Shown here: one piece after another, positions 4,059 to 43,053 of the stretch
How the letters are laid out: every line of letters starts with the position of its first letter
How positions within the stretch are numbered: the stretch's first letter is position 1
IMG/VR virus record: IMGVR_UViG_3300033571_004193
Span: 1-62,123 of that record
From: a virus
DNA length: 62,123 bases
Direction: 5' to 3' (one strand)
Program-made: the position numbers and the translations under genes
Notes under the pieces: generated by a model
Databases searched by the model: none
Told to the model about the DNA's origin: nothing
The model's input: only the letters and a program-made list of their open reading frames with translations

Positions 4059-4112
4059 TGTGGATAACTAAGTAAACAGCCTGTTGCATGGGGTAGGGCT
4101 ATCGCATATGGT
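4059..4112 (+). promoter_or_regulatory. Module promoter 1 (DnaA box, -35, -10)
   Basis: TGTGGATAA at 4059-4067 is the reverse complement of the consensus DnaA box, followed by CTAAGTAAAC. A -35 TTGCAT starts at 4084, exactly 25 nt from the box start, and a -10-like TATGGT lies at 4107 with a 17-nt spacer. Predicted start near 4119. It drives the 4161 unit. The upstream 3935-4058 stretch holds no gene; it contains a G-run at 4029-4037 but no long inverted repeat. Confidence 0.6.
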
Positions 4113-4585: not shown

Positions 4586-4620
4586 AGAGGCTGGGACTTC
4601 CCCCCCAGCCTCTTTACTTT
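4586..4620 (+). terminator. Intrinsic terminator, unit 1
   Basis: A 10-bp stem AGAGGCTGGG / CCCAGCCTCT (4586-4595 with 4604-4613) followed by TTTACTTT, directly after the zinc-ribbon gene. Confidence 0.8.
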
Positions 4621-4650: not shown

Positions 4651-4660
4651 CAACACAAAC
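4651..4660 (+). repeat. Lone right arm of the long inverted-repeat element
   Basis: CAACACAAAC is identical to the right end of the complete elements downstream, but no matching GTTTGTGTTG lies before it. The 4621-4713 spacer otherwise shows nothing recognisable. Probably a decayed element. Confidence 0.5.
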
Positions 4661-5446: not shown

Positions 5447-5482
5447 CAAGAAGCCCCCGTGCCGTCACACGGGGGCTTCTTG
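5447..5482 (+). terminator. Intrinsic terminator, unit 2
   Basis: A 15-bp stem, CAAGAAGCCCCCGTG at 5447-5461 with CACGGGGGCTTCTTG at 5468-5482. Its end abuts the GTTTGTGTTG arm of the long inverted repeat. Confidence 0.85.
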
Positions 5483-5560
5483 TTTGTGTTGGGGCGTGTG
5501 GGTGTGTATGTATGTATGGCTTTAAAGCTTCTTTATATATACACACGCCCCAACACAAAC
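5482..5560 (+). repeat. Long inverted-repeat element A
   Basis: Left arm GTTTGTGTTGGGGCGTGTG (5482-5500) pairs with CACACGCCCCAACACAAAC, which ends at 5560. The apical part contains GCTTTAAAGC, with AAGCTT at its core. The outer 10 bp are shared with elements B-F; the inner arm is unique but self-complementary. Confidence 0.85.
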
Positions 5561-5566
5561 TCTGCC

Positions 5567-5620
5567 TGTGGATAACTACATGAACGAGATGGAATAAGAA
5601 TTGGAATAATTGGTTATAGT
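5567..5620 (+). promoter_or_regulatory. Module promoter 3 (DnaA box, -10)
   Basis: TGTGGATAA at 5567-5575 then CTACATGAAC. The -35 window 25 nt from the box start reads GAATAA (weak); a good -10 TATAGT lies at 5615 with a 17-nt spacer. Predicted start near 5627, at the base of a GAGC/GCTC hairpin (5627-5644). Confidence 0.55.
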
Positions 5621-5667
5621 TACTACATGAGCAACACCGCTCATATTAGATAGATAGGAGACACACC

Positions 5668-5709
5668 ATGACGAGATTCGTCGGACTCCATATCAGGGAG
5701 ACACACTAA
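5668..5709 (+). CDS. Possible 13-residue leader peptide
   Basis: ATG at 5668 follows ATAGGAGACACACC, one of the best ribosome sites in the region, and runs 13 codons to TAA at 5707. The downstream gene's first start (5712) has a near copy of the same site (GGGAGACACACTAACT). This pattern suggests a translated leader that may couple or attenuate expression of the zinc-finger gene. No regulatory codon run is evident. Confidence 0.4.
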   Translation: MTRFVGLHIRETH

Positions 5710-5711
5710 CT

Positions 5712-6134
5712 ATGCAAGAGGGGGGTGATAATATGCAATTTACACGCAAAAACGCAATTCTGTGTCAGCGTGACACAGTACCAAATCCAATGCGCACAGG
5801 CACTTTCTTTAGCAACATGGTGCAACTAACATGGCTCGAAGAAGACAACAATATCCTTGTCTCATTCGGTTGCCTACAATGTGGCGAACAGACTCTAAGT
5901 CGTCCACAAATGTCAATCCATGTCGGGACACACAATCCCGACAATGCTAAGCCTAAGGTACGCGGTAAGTATAAGACCAAATCAGCCAAGAAGGCTGACG
6001 CGGTTACTACTGTTAGTAAGATGATTGACGACCTTACAGCAGAACGCGACCTATACAAGGCGCAAGCCCGCAAGTATCAAAAGCAACTTCAGGCGCTACG
6101 CGACCTGTTCAAAATTGACGATAATCTCGTCTAA
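5712..6134 (+). CDS. C2H2 zinc-finger / coiled-coil protein
   Basis: 140 residues (or 133 from ATG 5733, which has the site GAGGGGGG 5 nt upstream). Residues ~54-74 show C-x2-C-x12-H-x3-H, a classical C2H2 finger with CLQCGEQTL at its start. Then a basic linker (KPKVRGKYKTK) and a C-terminal helix with strong coiled-coil character (LTAERDLYKAQARKYQKQL). Likely a dimeric DNA-binding regulator, in the manner of Ros/MucR-type bacterial C2H2 proteins, though not clearly a member. Alone in its transcription unit. Confidence 0.7.
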   Translation: MQEGGDNMQFTRKNAILCQRDTVPNPMRTGTFFSNMVQLTWLEEDNNILVSFGCLQCGEQTLSRPQMSIHVGTHNPDNAKPKVRGKYKTKSAKKADAVTTVSKMIDDLTAERDLYKAQARKYQKQLQALRDLFKIDDNLV

Positions 6135-6164
6135 GGGTTTTACACCCCCCGTGTAAAGGCAACG

Positions 6165-6192
6165 AGCCCCCGCAGAGATGCGGGGGCTTTTT
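6165..6192 (+). terminator. Intrinsic terminator, unit 3
   Basis: AGCCCCCGCA pairs with TGCGGGGGCT followed by TTTT. A weaker hairpin, TTTACAC / GTGTAAA, lies just after the stop at 6139-6157. Confidence 0.85.
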
Positions 6193-6281
6193 GTTTGTGT
6201 TGGGCTTGTTGTTAATGGTTGATGTGTGTGTGAATAGCTTTCCATCTTTTATTAACTACTAGCAACAAGCCCAACACAAAC
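6193..6281 (+). repeat. Long inverted-repeat element B
   Basis: GTTTGTGTTGGGCTTGTTG starting at 6193 pairs with CAACAAGCCCAACACAAAC ending at 6281. Inner arm differs from A (GGCTTGTTG) yet stays complementary. The loop includes a GT-rich run and AGCTTT. Confidence 0.85.
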
Positions 6282-6294
6282 AACCAGGGCGCCC

Positions 6295-6360
6295 TGTGGA
6301 TAACTAGGTAAACAAATAGAGATAGCCTTATTGCATGAGAGCGAGAGATAAGCCTAAGAT
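6295..6360 (+). promoter_or_regulatory. Module promoter 4 (DnaA box, -35, -10)
   Basis: TGTGGATAA at 6295-6303, then CTAGGTAAAC. TTGCAT at 6331 is 36 nt from the box start (11 nt, about one helical turn, further than the other copies); -10 TAAGAT at 6355 with an 18-nt spacer. Predicted start near 6367, where the palindromic hairpin CGCGAG...CTCGCG (6368-6384) begins. Drives the DUF932 gene. Confidence 0.6.
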
Positions 6361-6407
6361 AAGCACACGCGAGACCGTCTCGCGCTATTTACCGAAGGGG
6401 GACTCTC

Positions 6408-7415
6408 GTGGCTCATGCGCTCGAGGTTCAAAATGGTGAAGTAGCCTTTGCTCTACGCGGTGCACCCGCGTGGCATGGGTTGGCTAACCGCACTTTCGGC
6501 ATTGACGAGCATGTCACAACCGCTGACATGCTAGAAAGTGCCAAATTGGCTGGCTGGGGTGTAGACCTCGAGCCTGTCCAATATCCGAGCGATTATCGCT
6601 CATCATCTGACCTATTCATGGTCACACGCACCAATCCATTCGACGCTGGCAAGGATGTCCTTGCGGTCGTTGGTAAGCGTTACCGCGTATTCCAAAATGA
6701 GGATTTATTCGCGTTCGGGGATAACATCCTCGACGGCGGTGCCTCATGGGAATCTGCTGGCTCAATCAAGGATGGCAAGGTTGTCTTTGGCTCCCTAGTT
6801 GTCCCTCGTGAGTTCATCCTCGACCCACAAGGTGCGAACGATAAGACTACGACTTACCTCTTGGTCTCATCTTCACATGACGGGTCTGCAAGTGTTACCG
6901 CGTCAATCACGCCTGTGCGTGTTGTCTGCCAAAACACTCTCAACATGGCGTTGCGTGGCGTTAAGCAATCTTTCAAGTTGCGCCACACTCTCAAGGCTGG
7001 CGAGCGCACTGCTGAGGCTCGTCGCGTATTGGGACTCACTTTCAATCACATGGACACTTTCGAGACTCTCGCTCGTGACCTGTTCCAGACCTCAATGGAC
7101 GCCAAGGGTTGGGATACTCTCGTGAACGCGGTTTATCCTAAGCCTGACGCACAATCAGCGCCTCAGTCACTCACCAAGTGGCAAGCCAAGCGCGACCTAC
7201 TGGATGATATTTATTTCCAGTCTCCTACCCAGACCAACATCAAGGGTAATTACTGGGGAGCGCTAAACGCTCTCACTGAGCGCCTAGATTATTTCCGCTC
7301 ATCACGCACCGCTAACGGCGAGGCTTTAATCGGTGCTGCTGCTGGTTTCGACCCTACTGTGAACGCTGAGAAGGCTCGTATCCTACGCGCCGTCCGCGAA
7401 CTCGCTAGCGTCTAA
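6408..7415 (+). CDS. DUF932 phage/plasmid-like protein
   Basis: 335 residues from GTG at 6408, with AAGGGGGAC upstream. The N-terminus (APAWHGLANRTFG), an FxxxDN region and SxTPVRVVCxNTLNMAL near residues 168-182 are hallmarks of the DUF932 / TIGR03299 family, common on phages and plasmids and often highly expressed. Molecular function is unknown. It is the only gene in its unit, with its own promoter, leader hairpin and terminator. Confidence 0.9.
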   Translation: MAHALEVQNGEVAFALRGAPAWHGLANRTFGIDEHVTTADMLESAKLAGWGVDLEPVQYPSDYRSSSDLFMVTRTNPFDAGKDVLAVVGKRYRVFQNEDLFAFGDNILDGGASWESAGSIKDGKVVFGSLVVPREFILDPQGANDKTTTYLLVSSSHDGSASVTASITPVRVVCQNTLNMALRGVKQSFKLRHTLKAGERTAEARRVLGLTFNHMDTFETLARDLFQTSMDAKGWDTLVNAVYPKPDAQSAPQSLTKWQAKRDLLDDIYFQSPTQTNIKGNYWGALNALTERLDYFRSSRTANGEALIGAAAGFDPTVNAEKARILRAVRELASV

Positions 7416-7427
7416 CAAGCCTAGCAA

Positions 7428-7460
7428 TCAGCCCCTAGCCAATCGGCTAGGGGCTGATTT
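7428..7460 (+). terminator. Intrinsic terminator, unit 4
   Basis: TCAGCCCCTAGCC pairs with GGCTAGGGGCTGA across the 4-nt loop AATC, followed by TTT. Confidence 0.85.
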
Positions 7461-7551
7461 GTTTGTGCTGGGGCTATATGGCTAGTAGTTAATACTCAGG
7501 GAAAGCTTATTCTCTCAAAATAGCCAGTAACCATATAGCCCCAGCACAAAC
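7461..7551 (+). repeat. Long inverted-repeat element C
   Basis: GTTTGTGCTGGGGCTATATGG starts at 7461 and its perfect complement ends at 7551 with CAGCACAAAC. Here both arms carry the C/G variant (GTGCTG / CAGCAC), a compensatory change within the conserved end. AAGCTT lies in the apical region. Confidence 0.87.
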
Positions 7552-7558
7552 ATTTGCC

Positions 7559-7613
7559 TGTGGATAAGTAAGTGAACTCGGTCTAGTAAGAGAATTAAAA
7601 GTGTGATTATACT
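7559..7613 (+). promoter_or_regulatory. Module promoter 5 (DnaA box, -10)
   Basis: TGTGGATAA at 7559-7567, then GTAAGTGAAC. The -35 position 25 nt on is TAGTAA (weak); -10 TATACT at 7608 with an 18-nt spacer. Predicted start at 7620, exactly the first base of the hairpin CTCGC/GCGAG (7620-7634). Confidence 0.55.
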
Positions 7614-7659
7614 TGGGGGCTCGCACCAAGCGAGAGAACTACTACCAAAGGGGTATCAC

Positions 7660-8139
7660 ATGGGTCTAGATATGTATCTAAAGGCAACAACTTACATCAA
7701 CAAGATTGACTACAACGCACAAGGCGATAGCGACGCTTGGGTTACTATGGAACAATTTGATAAGGTTGTTTCAGAGGCTGGCTTAGAAGCAGTCCACACC
7801 GACATCTATGGTGCAGAGGTTTCAGTTACCTGCGCCTACTGGCGCAAGGTCAATGCCGTTCATGGTTGGTTCGTACAGAACGTTCAGGGTGGCAACGACG
7901 ATTGTGGTAACTACTACGTTCCTAAGGCTAAGTTAGAGGAACTACGTGAAGCATGCCGTCAGGCTATCTTCCACAAAAATCCGTTGTTAATCAAGCCTAT
8001 GGAAGGGTTCTTCTTCGGTACTACAGATATTGACGAGTGGTACTGGAACGGGCTAAAAAGCACTATTAAACAGATTGACCGCGTACTTGCCTTGCCTAAT
8101 ATCGACGACTTGAGTTTCTACTATCAGTCGTCTTGGTAA
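7660..8139 (+). CDS. Conserved phage protein, MGLDMYL family
   Basis: 159 residues. Start at 7660 (MGLDMYL...) chosen over upstream GTG 7603 because of the ribosome site AAAGGGG and the conserved beginning. The YWRKVNAVHGWFV block and the later FFFGTTDIDEWY block are typical of a widespread phage family of unknown function. The His/Trp/Asp-rich conserved blocks suggest an enzyme-like pocket, but no reaction is known. Confidence 0.85.
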   Translation: MGLDMYLKATTYINKIDYNAQGDSDAWVTMEQFDKVVSEAGLEAVHTDIYGAEVSVTCAYWRKVNAVHGWFVQNVQGGNDDCGNYYVPKAKLEELREACRQAIFHKNPLLIKPMEGFFFGTTDIDEWYWNGLKSTIKQIDRVLALPNIDDLSFYYQSSW

Positions 8140-8149
8140 GACTATTAAG

Positions 8150-8176
8150 AAGCCCCGCAGAAATGCGGGGCTTTTT
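8150..8176 (+). terminator. Intrinsic terminator, unit 5
   Basis: AAGCCCCGCA pairs with TGCGGGGCTT followed by TTT. Confidence 0.85.
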
Positions 8177-8256
8177 GTTTGTGCTGGGCTTGGGGATGGG
8201 TATATTTAAAAGTAGTATTAATGCATCTCTTATTTATACCCAAGCCCAGCACAAAC
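8177..8256 (+). repeat. Long inverted-repeat element D
   Basis: GTTTGTGCTGGGCTT (8177 on) pairs with AAGCCCAGCACAAAC (ending 8256); pairing resumes as GGGTATA / TATACCC after a 6-nt bulge. Again the C/G compensatory variant of the outer arm. Confidence 0.83.
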
Positions 8257-8278
8257 ATTACTCGCCAGTAACATAGCC

Positions 8279-8333
8279 TGTGGATAACCAGGTGAACAAG
8301 AGTTTGAGAGGTGTCTGTTAGATAGTCTAATAT
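8279..8333 (+). promoter_or_regulatory. Module promoter 6 (DnaA box, -35, -10)
   Basis: TGTGGATAA at 8279-8287, then CCAGGTGAAC; TTGAGA at 8304 (25 nt from the box start), 18-nt spacer, TAATAT at 8328. Predicted start 8340 is the first base of the hairpin ATGAGCAC...GTGCTCAT (8340-8360). One of the best copies. Confidence 0.65.
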
Positions 8334-8360
8334 AAAGCCATGAGCACAAGGGGTGCTCAT

Positions 8361-8861
8361 ATGAGAGAAAGAGCGGGTATGTTCACACTCAACGACATCA
8401 CCTACTATGAGGAAAGCGACATCGCTGACCGCATAGCAAGTGAGCGCAGTACCGCAAGCGAGTGGGCTATAAATAGCCTACGCGCTGATAATCGCCATGA
8501 AACCTTGGCGATATTCAAAGCCGAGGTATCGGCTGGCTCAATGACGGAAGAAGATGCCGTCGAACTGTTTAATAAGATTGCTACAGCCTGTGGCTGGGAG
8601 CATGCTGAGGAGTCCGACTTACGGACACGATTTCGCGCAGAGGTTAGCCTCTTGGGTGAAGTTGTACTTGAACTTGACGATATTGAGGCGGACGACGAAG
8701 ACGACGCCAAGCAAAAAGTTCTAGATGATATTTCCTTCGATAATATCGAAGTTCGCGGTGACCTATCAGTCTTAGGTGATAGCGGTTCGTTCCGTGCGGG
8801 TACATGGGACCTAGATGATTTCCTAAATGATAACCTCGAAGTCGAGATATACGAGGCTTAG
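8361..8861 (+). CDS. Hypothetical acidic protein (module unit 6)
   Basis: 166 residues from ATG 8361; the ATG at 8340 lies in the leader hairpin, and 8379 is another possible start. For 8361 the ribosome site AAGGGG sits in the hairpin loop, so leader folding could modulate initiation. The second half has two beta-strand stretches around an acidic repeat (DDIEADDEDDAKQKVLDD). No family recognised. Confidence 0.7.
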   Translation: MRERAGMFTLNDITYYEESDIADRIASERSTASEWAINSLRADNRHETLAIFKAEVSAGSMTEEDAVELFNKIATACGWEHAEESDLRTRFRAEVSLLGEVVLELDDIEADDEDDAKQKVLDDISFDNIEVRGDLSVLGDSGSFRAGTWDLDDFLNDNLEVEIYEA

Positions 8862-8878
8862 CAGATACCCCTGCTAGG

Positions 8879-8905
8879 AAGCCCCCGCCGCAAGGTGGGG
8901 GCTTT
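8879..8905 (+). terminator. Intrinsic terminator, unit 6
   Basis: AAGCCCCCGCC pairs with GGTGGGGGCTT (one G-T pair) followed by TTT. Confidence 0.85.
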
Positions 8906-8919
8906 TTCATGCCGTAAAA

Positions 8920-9011
8920 GTTTGTGTTGGGGCTATTAGATGGCTATTTAAGCTTTTATTGCTTTAATAGATTCATCTATTAAAGCGCCATCTAATAGCC
9001 CCAACACAAAC
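8920..9011 (+). repeat. Long inverted-repeat element E
   Basis: Left arm from 8920 (GTTTGTGTTG then GGGCTATTAGATGGC) is perfectly complementary to the right arm ending at 9011 (GCCATCTAATAGCCC then CAACACAAAC): 25 bp of continuous pairing. AAGCTT lies in the AT-rich apical region. Confidence 0.88.
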
Positions 9012-9013
9012 CC

Positions 9014-9068
9014 TGTGGATAAGTAGATGAACAGCCCTCTGTGCAGATGAGAGATGAGAGATTAGTAT
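9014..9068 (+). promoter_or_regulatory. Module promoter 7 (DnaA box, -10)
   Basis: TGTGGATAA at 9014-9022, only 2 nt after element E, then GTAGATGAAC. The -35 position (25 nt) reads CTGTGC; -10 TAGTAT at 9063 with an 18-nt spacer. Predicted start near 9075, followed by a weak TTAC/GTAA hairpin. Confidence 0.5.
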
Positions 9069-9097
9069 TACGCCTGTTACTTAGTAAAGGAGATACT

Positions 9098-9619
9098 ATG
9101 AACAAGACAGAACGCAGAGAGCGTTTTACAGAACTAATGACGACAATAGAGTTATTAGGTAATCAGCATGACGAGAACTACGACCCTAAGTTCCCACGGG
9201 GGTCTTATGGTCTATCAGACGGCAACCTTAAAACCGCAGTAATGGCACAGGCTATGAGAGAAGATGATGAGTTCGTTGGTAACCTTATTAACGCGCTCGC
9301 CAACACAGGTCTAGGTGCATGCCAAGAAGCACACGAACGCGACGAACAACCAAGCGAGGACGACCTATCTTGCGCCACACTAGCAGTTCATGTGGCATGG
9401 GCTAAGGGCGCGTTTATGCCAATGGCGTTCCTAATGGGCACTATCGCCAAGATGATAGATGTCTTTGATATGGAAGTACCTGAGGACTTAACACTTATCC
9501 TTCGCAGTAACTCAGGTATGCAGGACAAGGCAAATATGTTTGACCCGATAGCACTATTAGATATGACGACGAAAGACTTGAAGCGTTATATCGAGGAAGG
9601 ATTGTCAAATGGCAACTAA
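9098..9619 (+). CDS. Hypothetical protein (module unit 7)
   Basis: 173 residues from ATG 9098, which has AAAGGAG upstream; an earlier ATG at 9041 lies in the promoter. Mostly helical, with a long Ala/Met-rich segment (VAWAKGAFMPMAFLMGTI). I see a faint likeness to the C-terminal part of actinobacterial DUF4192 proteins, not enough to assign it. Overlaps the next gene by 11 nt. Confidence 0.75.
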   Translation: MNKTERRERFTELMTTIELLGNQHDENYDPKFPRGSYGLSDGNLKTAVMAQAMREDDEFVGNLINALANTGLGACQEAHERDEQPSEDDLSCATLAVHVAWAKGAFMPMAFLMGTIAKMIDVFDMEVPEDLTLILRSNSGMQDKANMFDPIALLDMTTKDLKRYIEEGLSNGN

Positions 9620-9830
9620 GGTTATTAACGGCAAGAAAATGGTAGAAGTACCATTCACAGTTACCTTCAATGTGTGCGTAGAGGAACACGAATACCTGAA
9701 GTATGTAACTAGCGGTATCGTAGATGGGGCTATGGCACAAGCAGGTAAGGAAACCCTATTAGATAGTATTAAGCCCGTAATGGACAAGGCTAATGAAAAT
9801 TGGTCTTATATGATGATTGAGGTGGCGTAA
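9609..9830 (+). CDS. Hypothetical small protein
   Basis: 73 residues, one beta-rich half (MVEVPFTVTFNVCV) and one helical half. Coupled at both ends (TAATG-type overlap with the next gene). No family recognised. Confidence 0.7.
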   Translation: MATKVINGKKMVEVPFTVTFNVCVEEHEYLKYVTSGIVDGAMAQAGKETLLDSIKPVMDKANENWSYMMIEVA

Positions 9831-10234
9831 TGCAGATTAAAGACATGATGACACCTGCTATGTGTAAGAGCACTATCGGTGGGTGGATATGGTATTGCGA
9901 TAGTTGCGATACCCACGGCAACGCCAATTCCTCAGATGAGGCAGAGCATATGGCTGAGGCTCATGCGCTGTACCACTCATGGGATGAGGATGTGGAGTAC
10001 GACGAGGAGAAAGACCCTGACGGGGAGAACATAACCTCATATATGGAACTACCCTATGAAGAACGGGAGTTCTCACTCGCTAACTGGAGTATGGAGTGCC
10101 TACAAGCAACCTACCTTATTAGCGTAGATGACAACATTACCTACAACTATGGTGATGACTATGAAGATAAGACTATTAGACCGATAGATTTAGAAGTAGC
10201 CAACGAGATTAAGAAACGGATGGGATTAGCATAA
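9830..10234 (+). CDS. Zinc-finger-like acidic protein
   Basis: 134 residues. Near residues 22-44: WYCDSCDTHG followed by EHMAEAHALYH, a C-x2-C ... H-x(4)-H arrangement that could bind zinc. The middle is strongly acidic (DEDVEYDEEKDPDG). Function unknown; coupled to both neighbours. Confidence 0.7.
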   Translation: MQIKDMMTPAMCKSTIGGWIWYCDSCDTHGNANSSDEAEHMAEAHALYHSWDEDVEYDEEKDPDGENITSYMELPYEEREFSLANWSMECLQATYLISVDDNITYNYGDDYEDKTIRPIDLEVANEIKKRMGLA

Positions 10235-10749
10235 TGGGTATGGATGTATATGGAAATAACCCTATTAGTGAGAAGGGTGAGTATTTCCGCAACAATGTAT
10301 GGTGGTGGCGACCTTTGTGGGATTTCTGCGAGGAGATTGCCCCTGAACTGACACACGGAGTCCAAGGTCATACCAACGACGGAGATGGTCTAGATGAGGA
10401 AGGCGCTAAGGCGCTCGCTAATATCCTCACAATAAGCCTATCAGAAGGCGTTGTAGATACCTATGAGCAGAAGCGTAATGAGTATCTAGCAAGCCTACCT
10501 AAAGAGCCGTGCAAATACTGTGAGGCAACAGGTATCCGTACTGATAGCGTGGGCGTGGAGCACGGCATGGATGTACAAGTCTTATCAGATGCCGAGGCGA
10601 GCGCACTAGGTAGGACTATTGGATACTGTAATGGGTGTCAAGGCAAGGGAGAAACAGATAGTTGGGAGACACACTATCCGTTTAGTAGGACTAATGTACA
10701 AGAGTTTGCCGAGTTTCTAGCAGATAGTGGTGGTTTTAAAATCTGCTAG
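10234..10749 (+). CDS. Conserved phage protein with DnaJ-type zinc knuckles
   Basis: 171 residues. The opening (MGMDVYGNNPISEKGEYFRN and the following WWWRPLW) is typical of a phage family of unknown function. Near residues 93-100 and 129-135 it carries CKYCEATG and CNGCQGKG, the C-x2-C-x-G-x-G knuckles of DnaJ-like zinc domains. Last gene of unit 7, followed by a terminator. Confidence 0.85.
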   Translation: MGMDVYGNNPISEKGEYFRNNVWWWRPLWDFCEEIAPELTHGVQGHTNDGDGLDEEGAKALANILTISLSEGVVDTYEQKRNEYLASLPKEPCKYCEATGIRTDSVGVEHGMDVQVLSDAEASALGRTIGYCNGCQGKGETDSWETHYPFSRTNVQEFAEFLADSGGFKIC

Positions 10750-10786
10750 GATGTAGTATCTCCGCCCCCTTCGGGGATATACCACC

Positions 10787-10820
10787 AAAGCCCTCTGCTA
10801 GGACTAGCAGAGGGCTTTTA
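10787..10820 (+). terminator. Intrinsic terminator, unit 7
   Basis: A 14-bp stem, AAAGCCCTCTGCTA with TAGCAGAGGGCTTT, followed by TA. A small UUCG-loop hairpin (CCCCTTCGGGG) precedes it. Confidence 0.85.
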
Positions 10821-10839
10821 TCTGCCGCCAGCCTGGAAT

Positions 10840-10979
10840 GTTTGTGTTGGCCCACCCATCGCATAAATGTATTCAATTATACATTTATGCTAACCCACCC
10901 TTTTTGCCAGCCTTTTTATATTAAAAAGGCTGGATTCCTCTGTTGAGCAATAAGCCGTAGGCTATTGCTCAACACAAAC
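10840..10979 (+). repeat. Long inverted-repeat element F (composite)
   Basis: Same 10-bp ends (GTTTGTGTTG at 10840, CAACACAAAC ending 10979), but enclosing three separate hairpins: a perfect 12-bp stem GCATAAATGTAT (10861-10890), a 12-bp stem CCAGCCTTTTTA (10907-10933), and GTTGAGCAATAAGCC with its complement (10942-10973, one bulged A). It fills the first part of the 593-bp gene-free stretch 10750-11341. Confidence 0.8.
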
Positions 10980-11341: not shown

Positions 11342-12880
11342 ATGCTCGCACTACTCGTAGTGTCTGACACCGAACTAGAAGGAACACCTGCACAATCGCA
11401 GACTCTCCTAGTTGGTACAGATACAGAAGTTATCGGATACCACCGCGTATCCAATGGACAGAAGGGGCGTGGTCAATCATGGCAACCCCTTACAGATAGC
11501 ACTATCCCAACCGCCCCTATCACCAACGAGCCATGCGCCGTTGTCCTATCAGATAGGGATATGGAGATGATGAAGTTAGGTCAAATTACCAATATCGGTA
11601 TCAAAGCCCTATACGCCCTAGAAAGCGCACCTGCTATCCACGACGGCAACCCTCACAATGAGGTAGTAGATAGTCTTATTACACGCCTAGAGTCAGGCGA
11701 CCAATCCCTAACTAACCTTATTACCGACAAGCGCAGAACGACGGGTGTATCTATTAAGCCTATCGCGAAGGCAGAGGAAGTAACACAGGTCATGGAAGTA
11801 TCCGTCGTACCTACTAAGGTTACTAACTACACCGAACTATCTAATAACCTCGTTACACAAATGGTATCCGTACCCGACAAGAAGTGGGCTAAGGAATATA
11901 TCAACCGCAAGGTCGTTAATAACCTTACCGACTTTGAGATTTACGACTACGCCAACGCTAACGACATGAATATCCTTATTGAGGGTCACGCAGGGTCAGG
12001 TAAGACTATGAGCGTACAAGCGTTCGCTTCCGCTAGAGGCATGCGCTACTTCAATGTCGCGTGTCATATCGGGCTAGAAGCCTCACACCTAATCGGTCGT
12101 TGGATACCAACGGCAGACGGGCACTTCCGTTGGCAAGACGGCGCAGTTACAGAAATTGTCCGTAATGGTGGCGTACTCCTATTTAACGAGATTAACTTTG
12201 CACCTGAACGCTTCCTCACCTTTATCTTTAGCCTATTAGATTATCGCCGTGAGATACAGTTAATGGAAAATGGCGGAGAAGTTATCAAGGCTCACCCTGA
12301 CCTACTAATCGTGGCAGACATGAACCCTGACTATCGTGGCACTCGCCCACTTAATCAAGCACTCGCCGACCGCTTCGCAGTACGCCTATCATTCCCATAC
12401 GATAAGCCTATTGAGCAGAAGTTACTCGGTAACAAAGCCCTAGTAGATATGGCTAACCAACTCCGTGATGAGTTTAATAAGGGTACGCTATTGACTCCCG
12501 TATCTACTAGAGCGTTGGTCGCGTTCGTAAAGCATGCTAAGCAGTTTGGCATGGACTTCGCTACTTACACCTATGTCAATAGTTTTGAGGGTGATGAGGA
12601 ACGCTCGGCAGTACGCCTAGTAATCAACACCCACCGCGACAATATCGCAGAGGAACTAGGACTAGAAGTTACTAATAAGGCTAGTGTGTTTGGTAACTCT
12701 AACTTAGAACAGGCTATCGCTAATACAGAAATAGGCGCACAGGTCGCTTCATACGAAGCCGTAGTCGCACCTAGCGACCCTGACATTACCGCTAGTCAGG
12801 TCATGGAAGTAGAACTTAATAACATTATCAACGGCAACAACCCGAACCTCGTTGCTAACCTTATTGTAGAGGGTAACTAA
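11342..12880 (+). CDS. MoxR/CobS-type AAA+ ATPase
   Basis: 512 residues; ribosome site AAGGG upstream. About 200 N-terminal residues are unrecognised. Walker A is GHAGSGKT at residues 215-222. The Walker B segment reads GGVLLFNEINFAPERF, with Asn where MoxR proteins have Asp. Sensor 1 ADMNPDYRG and ALADRF (arginine finger region) follow. MoxR ATPases work as hexameric chaperones with VWA-domain partners, and the next gene is exactly that. CobS, the cobaltochelatase ATPase, is a related alternative. NTP hydrolysis may be altered by the Asn. Confidence 0.85.
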   Translation: MLALLVVSDTELEGTPAQSQTLLVGTDTEVIGYHRVSNGQKGRGQSWQPLTDSTIPTAPITNEPCAVVLSDRDMEMMKLGQITNIGIKALYALESAPAIHDGNPHNEVVDSLITRLESGDQSLTNLITDKRRTTGVSIKPIAKAEEVTQVMEVSVVPTKVTNYTELSNNLVTQMVSVPDKKWAKEYINRKVVNNLTDFEIYDYANANDMNILIEGHAGSGKTMSVQAFASARGMRYFNVACHIGLEASHLIGRWIPTADGHFRWQDGAVTEIVRNGGVLLFNEINFAPERFLTFIFSLLDYRREIQLMENGGEVIKAHPDLLIVADMNPDYRGTRPLNQALADRFAVRLSFPYDKPIEQKLLGNKALVDMANQLRDEFNKGTLLTPVSTRALVAFVKHAKQFGMDFATYTYVNSFEGDEERSAVRLVINTHRDNIAEELGLEVTNKASVFGNSNLEQAIANTEIGAQVASYEAVVAPSDPDITASQVMEVELNNIINGNNPNLVANLIVEGN

Positions 12881-12881
12881 T

Positions 12882-14753
12882 ATGCCTAAGGCTAATCAGA
12901 ACGACATATTAGATAACCTTATTAACGAACTTCGTTACGGGGGAGAATATAACTCCCGTGATGAGGAAGGTAATTGGGTTACAGATTACGACGCTATTGA
13001 GGAACGACAGGAAGCCGTCGCAAAGCATATCGAAAAGTTACAATCGGTAGGCTTCGTGTATAGCAAGGCAGATAGGATTATTACAGGCGACCCCGTAGAA
13101 GTACGGGTTGAGGATAACCCTGAAATGGATACTACCGCCTACAACGACGGCAAGAATATCGTGTTCAACGCACACCTATTAGAGGACATAACCGACGAAA
13201 GTATCGTGAGCCTTCACGGGTTTAACTACCATGAAGTCGCGCATATCCTATGGACTCCGCGTGGTGGTAGTGAGTTTGGTACGACTATCAGACAGGAGAA
13301 GTTAGGCAGAGCCTTCAATATCCTAGAGGATAGCCGTATCGAACGACTACTAATCGCAAAGTATCCTGCAACCGCACCCTTCCTAGAAGCGTCTAGCCTA
13401 GAGTATATTCTTAAAGGCGACCCTAGTGAGTGGTGCGATTACTTCCCACTATTTACAGGTCGTAAGTATTTAGATATAGATTTACGACAAGAACTCGCAG
13501 ATAGGTTTATTAAGAAGCATGGAGTAGCAACCGCACAGTTGCTATCCGTAATCGTGCATGAATACCGCACCCTAGTATTCCCACGCGACTATGCGAGAGC
13601 GTTAGATATTCTCCGACAGTTTGCAGATATAGTCGGTAAAGACGACCAACCGACTAGCAATATCCCACAAGACGGGGGCGGTCATGGCGACCGCAAGCCT
13701 ATGGATAAGGGTCGCATGGAAGGTAACAAGGAACAACAGAAACTACAAGATAAGGCTAGTAGTCAGGAAAGCGGTAGTAACGCAGGTAATGAGAAGTTAG
13801 ATGAACCTGCCGATAACAGTAACTCCAACGATACAACAGGCTTATCAGATGAGCAGAGCGCAGAGGATAAGGCACTTAAAGATAAGATTAACAATGACCT
13901 TACCGACCTACTAAAGCGTGAGGAAGTAAAGCGAGATACACAGGAAGTCCGTAAGGCTATCCGTGATAACTCTAACTCTCATAGTGCTATTAAGCAGGGC
14001 GCATACACTAATAGCGTTGTGAAGCCACAGTTACAGGCTAACGCTCGTAACTTCGCCGTGGCTATGGAACGCCTACGGATAGATAACGACCCACAATGGG
14101 AGTTAGAAGTAGAAAGCGGTCGCTTAAATATAGGTCGCGCTATGAAGGCAGATATTAACGACATTAACCGCCTATTCGATAGGTGGAGTGAAGGTAATAG
14201 CAACAACGACATAGAAGCGGTAGTCCTAGTAGATACTAGCGGTAGCATGGGTTGGCAGATACAACGCACTATGGAAAGCGCATGGACTATCAAGCGCGGT
14301 ATTGAACGCATTAACGGGCGTGTATCCGTCTATAAGTTTAACCATGACTCTCGCCTAGTTTATAGTGGAGATGAGAAGGCTAAGCCTACGGAGTACCGCT
14401 TCGTAAATAGTAGCGGTGGCACTAACCCATACAAAGCCCTATTAGAAGCGCAACGCATACTTCGCACTAGCCGTAAAGGTATCAAGATACTATTTATCGT
14501 TACCGACGGCTCATGGGATATGACAGAGCAGAACGATAGGGTTATTAAAGATTTATCTAGCGAAGGCGTTATGACTAGCGTAGCCTTCCTCGGTGACTTT
14601 GAGTGGATAAAGGCTAACGACCATGAACGCTACAAGGCGTATATGAAAGAAGTACGCCACGAAGCACAGGTAATGCGTGTAGTATCAGAGCCACGCGACC
14701 TAGTAGATATTGCTAAAGACCTAGTTAAGTTGGTAATGGGTAAGAAGCACTAA
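12882..14753 (+). CDS. VWA-domain protein with HExxH metalloprotease-like motif
   Basis: 623 residues, starting 1 nt after the MoxR gene. HEVAH at residues 117-121 is an HExxH zinc motif, with NILEDSRIERLL ~25 residues later supplying a possible third ligand. A low-complexity, charged linker (residues ~260-350) leads to a VWA domain whose MIDAS starts VDTSGSMG (D451, S453, S455), with a later TDGSWD. This resembles VWA proteins with a putative metallopeptidase domain (DUF2201-like) or CobT-like partners of MoxR ATPases. The pair probably remodels a target protein or complex; the target is unknown. Confidence 0.85.
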   Translation: MPKANQNDILDNLINELRYGGEYNSRDEEGNWVTDYDAIEERQEAVAKHIEKLQSVGFVYSKADRIITGDPVEVRVEDNPEMDTTAYNDGKNIVFNAHLLEDITDESIVSLHGFNYHEVAHILWTPRGGSEFGTTIRQEKLGRAFNILEDSRIERLLIAKYPATAPFLEASSLEYILKGDPSEWCDYFPLFTGRKYLDIDLRQELADRFIKKHGVATAQLLSVIVHEYRTLVFPRDYARALDILRQFADIVGKDDQPTSNIPQDGGGHGDRKPMDKGRMEGNKEQQKLQDKASSQESGSNAGNEKLDEPADNSNSNDTTGLSDEQSAEDKALKDKINNDLTDLLKREEVKRDTQEVRKAIRDNSNSHSAIKQGAYTNSVVKPQLQANARNFAVAMERLRIDNDPQWELEVESGRLNIGRAMKADINDINRLFDRWSEGNSNNDIEAVVLVDTSGSMGWQIQRTMESAWTIKRGIERINGRVSVYKFNHDSRLVYSGDEKAKPTEYRFVNSSGGTNPYKALLEAQRILRTSRKGIKILFIVTDGSWDMTEQNDRVIKDLSSEGVMTSVAFLGDFEWIKANDHERYKAYMKEVRHEAQVMRVVSEPRDLVDIAKDLVKLVMGKKH

Positions 14754-14826
14754 GGTAGGGAAGTAGCAATCGAACAGGCGTTCGCACCTACCGCGACCGC
14801 CCACCACAAACAGAAGGGATATAACT

Positions 14827-16327: not shown

Positions 16328-16441
16328 ATGTCCGAAGAAAGAGAGAATAAATGTGGCTGCGGGAATTGCAGTTGCGGAGAGAGTAACGAAGGATTAAAGA
16401 TAGAAAAGAGAGTCGTTTCGGAAATGGACGGCGTTAGTTAG
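16328..16441 (+). CDS. Tiny Cys-rich protein
   Basis: 37 residues containing KCGCGNCSCGES: five Cys in eight residues, similar to short metal-binding peptides. Its stop codon overlaps the GTTTGTGTTG motif. Confidence 0.5.
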   Translation: MSEERENKCGCGNCSCGESNEGLKIEKRVVSEMDGVS

Positions 16442-16475
16442 TTTGTGTTGGCGCACTAGACAAGTTTGTTATATA
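16441..16475 (+). promoter_or_regulatory. Possible promoter with a lone left arm of the inverted repeat
   Basis: GTTTGTGTTG at 16441-16450 is the left end of the long inverted repeats, here without a right arm. Its last TTG begins a -35-like TTGGCG (16448), followed after 16 nt by TATATA (16470). It may drive 16514-17079. No DnaA box here. Confidence 0.4.
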
Positions 16476-42138: not shown

Positions 42139-43053
42139 TCAACTCCTTAACATGTGGGTAGCGTTCTCAAGTCCCCAGACTATCTCAGCTTGAGACATTC
42201 CGCCAACGTCTTTCATATCTGTCTGAGAATAGTTAAATAACCAGCATTCAAGACCGTACTCTTTTGCCCTCTTAAGCAGGTCACGGGTAGCCTCATTACC
42301 AGCCTTATCATTGTCCATTGCAAAAATTACACGTTCCCCACCGCGAATTAAATTAAACTGCACATTAGAGACTATGCATCCATAGACCGCTACGCCCCCT
42401 GGGAAGCCCACAGAAGCTAAGCGAATGACATCTAGTGGTGACTCAACAACAATCATGTCTCCGCCTTCGTACAGGTCGTAGCCAAATAAAGCATCGCCCT
42501 TCTTTACACGAGCAGTGTTCTTAAAGATGCGTCGGTCATGACCCTTCTCCTGCCATCCCATAAGCTTATTAGTTAGCGGGTCTCTAATAGGAATAATCCA
42601 AGACTTGTCAGTGGAGTTCCAACGTACGCCATACTTCCAAACTAAATCTGGTAACAATCCTCTAGTCAAACATGTAGCGCCAGGCACTCCTTTAAATGCA
42701 CTGAGCATAGACTCGTGGATAATAACTGGCTCTTCTTGCTTTTGGTCTTTGAGGTTTGTAAGACGTTGAAAACGAGAACGCAAAGATGACTCAACTTTTG
42801 CTGCTAAATCTAAATTACCACCACCAGCTACACCACCAACCTGCTCTATAAGTGTGTAGATGTTTCCTTTCCACTGACAAGAGAAACATATGAACGCGCC
42901 ACTATCAGCATTTATCCATAACGATGGGTTCCTATCCTCTTTGCCTGTGCGCTCTTTATGAGCAGGACAGTTAATCTGAATCTCATCGCCACGAGTATCG
43001 TTGACGTTAAGACCTAAACTAACAAGGGTGTCTTTCATCTCCTCTATGGTCAT
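42139..43053 (-). CDS. DnaG-type primase (CHC2 zinc finger + Toprim)
   Basis: 304 residues. Zinc finger ligands C29, H32, C56 and C59 (CPAH...CFSC), then a Toprim domain: MIVVESPLDVIRL and FAMDNDKAG (acidic motifs). Shorter than bacterial DnaG, as in many phages. Synthesises RNA primers with the adjacent DnaB. Confidence 0.92.
   Translation of the reverse strand: MTIEEMKDTLVSLGLNVNDTRGDEIQINCPAHKERTGKEDRNPSLWINADSGAFICFSCQWKGNIYTLIEQVGGVAGGGNLDLAAKVESSLRSRFQRLTNLKDQKQEEPVIIHESMLSAFKGVPGATCLTRGLLPDLVWKYGVRWNSTDKSWIIPIRDPLTNKLMGWQEKGHDRRIFKNTARVKKGDALFGYDLYEGGDMIVVESPLDVIRLASVGFPGGVAVYGCIVSNVQFNLIRGGERVIFAMDNDKAGNEATRDLLKRAKEYGLECWLFNYSQTDMKDVGGMSQAEIVWGLENATHMLRS

Follow-up and report, generated by a model that had tools for sequence, protein, structure and literature searches.

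What is served by the six long inverted repeats, elements A to F, that recur between the early genes of the virus record IMGVR_UViG_3300033571_004193 (positions 1 to 62,123, the whole 62,123-nucleotide (nt) stretch being hereafter called the window)? The original prediction placed each of them between a terminator and the next DnaA box, and took their covarying inner arms as a sign of selection for pairing, hence of a functional RNA hairpin or a DNA cruciform, while naming the boundaries of exchanged cassettes as one further candidate. It is this last candidate that the analysis supports best: we favor, tentatively and at a probability somewhat short of even, the reading of the elements as DNA boundaries that separate the autonomous, swappable early-gene units of lytic-looking actinobacteriophages, a kind of boundary that looks undescribed.

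All six elements were found at the predicted coordinates and have the ends GTTTGTGYTG / CARCACAAAC:

5482-5560, unstranded: element A, inverted repeat with a perfect stem of 19 base pairs (bp) and a 41-nt apex
6193-6281, unstranded: element B, perfect stem of 19 bp (21 with the flanks)
7461-7551, unstranded: element C, perfect stem of 21 bp
8177-8256, unstranded: element D, perfect stem of 18 bp
8920-9011, unstranded: element E, perfect stem of 25 bp and an inner hairpin
10840-10979, unstranded: element F, 10-nt ends as in A-E, C-rich CCCACCC tracts and three separate hairpins

The predicted matching of the Y/R position on the two sides was found in six of six elements, AAGCTT is indeed present in the apical part of A, C and E, and the description as long repeats with variable, complementary arms held for A-E, whose perfect stems of 18-25 bp enclose spacers of 27-51 nt, the value varying with whether mismatches are allowed. 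It did not hold for F, the outer stem of which, counted inwards from the ends, extends over only 10 bp, or 13 bp with flanking bases; made of three independent hairpins and lacking a long stem, F is a separate class. The stems of A-E far exceed what chance produces. Forty Markov versions of the window gave, over the whole set, two inverted repeats whose arms reach 13 bp and not one whose arms reach 16 bp; the real window has 10 that reach 13 bp, each being either an element or a terminator-like hairpin. Folded as single-stranded DNA, A-F yield z-scores from -6.3 to -15, and the apex of B is homologous, in inverted orientation, to that of C. As to F, its CCCACCC tracts, present in the relatives' copies as well, read GGGTGGG on the opposite strand, a possible quadruplex, and the base of its last hairpin competes with the outer stem for CAACACAAAC.

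The predicted location is also borne out, each of the six elements directly following an intrinsic terminator, the T-rich tail of which is, in A-D, the GTTTGTG end of the element itself or touches it:

5447-5482, plus strand: intrinsic terminator adjoining A, its T-rich tail being the GTTTGTG end of A
6164-6189, plus strand: intrinsic terminator adjoining B
7426-7459, plus strand: intrinsic terminator adjoining C
8146-8177, plus strand: intrinsic terminator adjoining D
8880-8905, plus strand: intrinsic terminator about 15 nt upstream of E
10787-10818, plus strand: intrinsic terminator about 22 nt upstream of F
5567-5587, plus strand: TGTGGATAAC box (CTGTGGATAACTAGRTGAACA type) after A, with boxes of the same type at 6295, 7559, 8279, 9014 and 10990

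At each of these six box positions (5567, 6295, 7559, 8279, 9014 and 10990), 2-22 nt downstream of the element, an exact TGTGGATAA is found. This regular adjacency would suit sites of replication or of single-strand initiation beside DnaA boxes, an explanation that we nevertheless hold to be very improbable: several relatives have elements without the box, two of them (L077 and L146) hold a different repeat at its position, and the copy number of the elements tracks the gene units. Moreover, the repeated CTGTGGATAACTAGRTGAACA box extends beyond the length of a DnaA box, is also found without a complete element at 4059, 4714 and 11226, and is replaced by other repeats in other relatives, for instance by TTTATAACGnnnnGATAACG in L077. 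Instead of a DnaA site, the box may represent a tandem operator or a -35 region, and its recurrence suggests that promoters lie there.

Homologous copies in related phages were found in about 25 records. A scan of viral contigs for paired ends returned 68 stretches, many of them from related phages with several elements each, other matches (such as L005, L010, L016 and L044) looking like chance matches in coding sequence; the L-numbers are labels of related virus records or stretches, and all relatives are metagenomic contigs. In the related records the paired half-sites are concentrated in one early-gene region of several kilobases, where an element sets off nearly every early gene from its neighbor. 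The elements, 59-143 nt long, variable in their arms and invariant over 7 nt of the end, take three forms. In form 1, to which A-E belong, the outer stem is perfect over 18 bp or more; form 2, represented by F, was found upstream of the AAA ATPase gene in the majority of the records examined; in form 3, about 20 elements of another group of relatives, the ends are retained and the folding of the interior is no stronger than expected from composition (mean z about -1.1 vs -7.4 in form 1). Stem lengths are bimodal, either 7-12 or at least 18 bp with none between. In form-1 genomes 44 of the 45 non-F elements picked by their 10-nt ends alone have a stem that reaches 18 bp or more; the pairs at positions 11-18, which lie outside the search pattern, are Watson-Crick in 353 of 360 cases, compared with a mean of 194 and a maximum of 238 for permuted arms.

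Searches were also made beyond this group of phages. The annotated collection of named phages gave matches only within coding sequence and no element; part of BRock and of Evy, where long-arm inverted repeats with other ends were sought, held no such element; in Rfam the only window scores above the gathering threshold are those of three tRNAs; and bacterial and archaeal genomes yielded 3 pattern matches vs about 2 estimated by chance, none a convincing element. The absence of convincing copies from host genomes speaks against mobile palindromes of the miniature inverted-repeat transposable element or repetitive extragenic palindromic (REP) kind inserting after terminators, as do the failure to find a Y1 transposase and the arms, which are unrelated between many copies. 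Dispersed copies with conserved ends are what such insertion would produce, and in the near-identical phages L113 (about 4060-4080) and L114 (3673-3779) F is absent almost precisely from the former (GGAAATG followed by CTGTGGCG), be it by natural deletion or by assembly error; inspected by eye, the flanks of the elements displayed no target-site duplication and the apices proved related in some copies only. Mobility of this kind seems to us only faintly probable. Five stretches (L011, L049, L037, L047 and L105) start or end within a few bases of an element, and some of these ends are probably contig ends due to assembly breaks at palindromes.

Evidence for the boundary reading comes from the genes listed between elements across the relatives, where whole units are seen to be gained, lost and reordered. 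In the window these units are:

5712-6134, plus strand: gene of the A-B unit, 140 amino acids, no family
6408-7415, plus strand: DUF932 gene, B-C unit
7603-8139, plus strand: C-D unit, phrog_7971-like
8340-8861, plus strand: D-E unit, with a weak match to a DNA-binding PHROG
9041-10749, plus strand: multi-gene E-F unit

The gene at 5712-6134 precedes the DUF932 gene in the window and follows it in L107, L108, L109 and L115, and in L107 and L108 the stretches that match terminator plus element of the window belong to non-homologous units. The unit at 7603-8139 is missing from L104, and since the alignment between the window and L104 ends at 7481, the end of the left arm of C, and restarts at 8245, at the right end of D, both breakpoints of the missing unit lie inside elements. 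The junction in L104 consists of a terminator and left end resembling the C side and of a right end and box resembling the D side; its apex, on the other hand, resembles neither C nor D, so that a simple crossover between C and D is an incomplete account of the event.

Could the elements then be sites of a dedicated recombination system? The attC sites of integrons lie between cassettes and are 57-142 nt long; the heptanucleotide boxes at their boundaries are conserved, the inverted arms inside them poorly so (PMC2727003). Our elements share this length range, short conserved boundary boxes, variable complementary arms and the position between units, and are in anatomy closest to attC. They are not assigned there because the recombinase and the extrahelical bases were tested for and not found: the IntI-type tyrosine recombinase PF00589 is present in none of 25 related records (possibly fragments), extrahelical bases were not found in the folded strand, and the outer stems are perfect. 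A phage-encoded system of this kind would consist of folded, single-stranded palindromes with clade-specific ends, upon which a candidate recombinase of no known family would insert, remove and reorder early host-takeover genes. The location of the breakpoints of the C-D unit indel inside elements would fit it, as does the anatomy; nevertheless, with no tyrosine or serine recombinase and no Y1 transposase in the 25 records, and with units that, unlike integron cassettes, carry their own terminators and probably promoters, we regard it as quite improbable.

The behavior of the arms does not support the original prediction of selected pairing. Pair statistics were counted from the ends inwards, since a MAFFT alignment of 25 elements misplaced the inner arms. 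The 68 distinct long-stem elements, chosen for at least 15 uninterrupted pairs, have 1514 uninterrupted outer pairs between them, and in none of their stems does an isolated mismatch or wobble (isolated meaning followed by four pairs) interrupt the pairing; the bimodal stem lengths show that this selection missed few interrupted stems. One further element, in L002, has a single A.C mismatch. When 29 pairs of elements with similar apices were compared (pairs which are not independent and in which both members are perfect-stemmed), 41 of 603 outer pairs were found to differ, all 41 of them on both sides, apical differences amounting to 125/1295. Thus the elements at L109:9671 and L107:7199 differ by one apical base and by a 2-bp insertion present in both arms, C differs from its counterpart in L106 by outer arms replaced on both sides of a similar apex, and in E both the outer stem and the inner hairpin have changed two-sidedly in relatives. 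Template switching between inverted repeats is known to homogenize arms and invert spacers (PMC8604942) and can create and maintain perfect hairpins (PMC8794818). Because two-sided changes without wobble, together with inverted apices, match this published signature, the covariation is no proof of selection for pairing; template switching between the arms would explain the pattern without it, although selection is compatible too, as it may keep the products of template switching.

The loss of this argument bears on the functional RNA hairpin, according to which read-through transcripts would form an 18-27 bp duplex to be cut by RNase III, as in T7, or to act as a small RNA or insulator. The position between a terminator and the next gene and the strong folding agree with it, and stems of 18-27 bp are near the two-turn length of an RNase III substrate. 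T7 early mRNA, too, has RNase III processing hairpins between early genes; the present elements differ from them in that they follow terminators, have fixed ends and have their arms rewritten without wobble. Lying past the terminator, they would be transcribed only by read-through; wobble pairs are absent and the long-stem elements fold equally on both strands, no strand preference pointing to RNA having been found in them; the form-3 elements lack inner folding beyond composition; and RNase III does not require fixed ends of 10-12 bp. This explanation is in our judgment unlikely.

A second end motif occurs as well. In L077, found through the relationship of its DUF932 gene, the architecture is that of the window with ends reading TTGTTGAGTTGG / CCAACTCAACAA, and L146, from the same sample, contains about ten further copies, between almost all genes. 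All of the approximately 16 copies in these two stretches carry the other end motif, oriented inwards or outwards, which implies that the ends change in concert within a genome; in the GTTTGTG clade no reversed-motif hairpins were found. In L146 the arms of two perfect palindromes (6571-6662 and 7356-7495) are so long, about 40 and 64 bp, that they include the neighboring promoter-box/operator repeat GTTATCAAATCGTTATAA.

Half-sites also occur singly:

4651-4660, minus strand: single half-site CAACACAAAC, after a terminator at 4586-4613, in the same position in relatives
14802-14811, minus strand: single half-site CACCACAAAC (one mismatch), after the VWA gene and directly before a ribosome-binding site, without a partner

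A further one is found at 16441-16450, and at the place matching 14802-14811 five relatives (L104, L106, L111, L112 and L124) have CAACACAAAC.

How, then, would a boundary of swappable units operate? Each unit would comprise an element, an operator and promoter, one or more genes and a terminator; crossovers or template jumps landing in the terminator/element stretch would cause a gene to be gained, lost or moved together with its own promoter and terminator. The clade-specific ends of 10-12 bp would provide either a recognized sequence or shared homology, and template switching during replication would copy one arm anew from the other, so that drifting arms stay perfectly complementary. RecA, the presence of which speaks in favor of this reading, is encoded in 11 of the 11 records checked. 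That the elements cause the exchange, and that their ends are a recognition site, we infer from these patterns.

Several facts weigh against this reading. A single unit indel has been resolved to the base, and identity varies within units too, so that exchange is not confined to the elements. No Y1, tyrosine or serine recombinase is found in the 25 related records, and homology of 10-30 bp is short for RecA. A simple boundary has no need of a long hairpin, the reading offers no reason why the form-3 group lacks inner pairing, and, palindromes being prone to assembly error in metagenomic contigs, part of the variation could be of that origin. Finally, lone half-sites conserved between genes suggest a regulatory or binding role, and it is on account of these, and of form 3 without inner pairing, that paired operators rank next after the boundary reading. 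In this alternative a phage regulator would bind GTTTGTGYYG half-sites near each early promoter, the palindrome being secondary; the half-sites kept at homologous intergenic places, the persistence of the ends where inner pairing is lost, the concerted switch of end motif in L077 and L146 and the adjoining repeated promoter box all argue for it. It leaves unaccounted for, however, the perfect variable arms and the matched Y/R changes, and the spacing of the half-sites varies (elements of about 60 to 143 nt), and we consider it rather unlikely, if the best of the alternatives.

As regards known systems, the elements appear to work most like the promoter early stem-loops (PeSLs) of T4-like phages, reportedly described by Arbiol 2010 and Comeau 2014. 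A PeSL is a repeated intergenic piece that combines a terminator with an early promoter and is tied to modular gene shuffling (PMC4503421). The genes between copies of our elements are likewise shuffled as modules, and a terminator is found here too, with a putative promoter suggested by the repeated box; the difference is that here terminator and promoter region are kept apart by an additional long palindrome, its ends fixed and its matched arms variable, and that the phages are unrelated. The extended start-associated sequences (ESAS) of cluster K mycobacteriophages, which are actinophages, likewise form inverted repeats and precede some of the non-structural genes; their repeats measure 17 bp and follow a single consensus in any one phage, their spacers are mostly 4-13 bp, and a 13-bp start-associated sequence (SAS) at the start codon usually lies next to them (PMC3203893). 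The original prediction had set the elements apart from ESAS, and rightly so: the spacers of A-E and arms that differ between copies are incompatible with a 4-13 bp spacer and a single consensus, and the SAS GGGATAGGAGCCC has in the window one match with 2 mismatches, at 42926, which is chance level. Two other candidates were rejected: REP/RAYT palindromes, PF01797 (the RAYT kind of Y1 transposase) being present in 0 of 25 records, and intrinsic terminators, given that each element has a separate terminator ahead of it, a long apex, and no run of T behind its stem.

The phage itself has genes for three tRNAs, RecA, a DnaB-like helicase, a B12-type ribonucleotide reductase and a contractile-tail sheath; the nearest matches to the sheath, at about 40 percent, come from Streptomyces phages, BRock and LuckySocke among them. 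At 11342-14753 a VWA-domain gene follows a gene for an AAA (MoxR-like) ATPase, an arrangement conserved beside the element region in most relatives. WhiB is an actinobacterial protein, and its gene (whiB) is present in 25 of the 25 related records searched, which indicates actinobacterial hosts; a lytic life is likely because no integrase was found in these records, which may be fragments.

The wobble-free, matched rewriting of the arms offers a clean natural example of covariation that falls short, by itself, of proving that an RNA structure is under selection. Should the boundary reading be true, the elements would be visible joints at which early genes, probably a host-takeover set, swap as complete units, and in uncultured actinophages such genes could be located and delimited by means of these joints.

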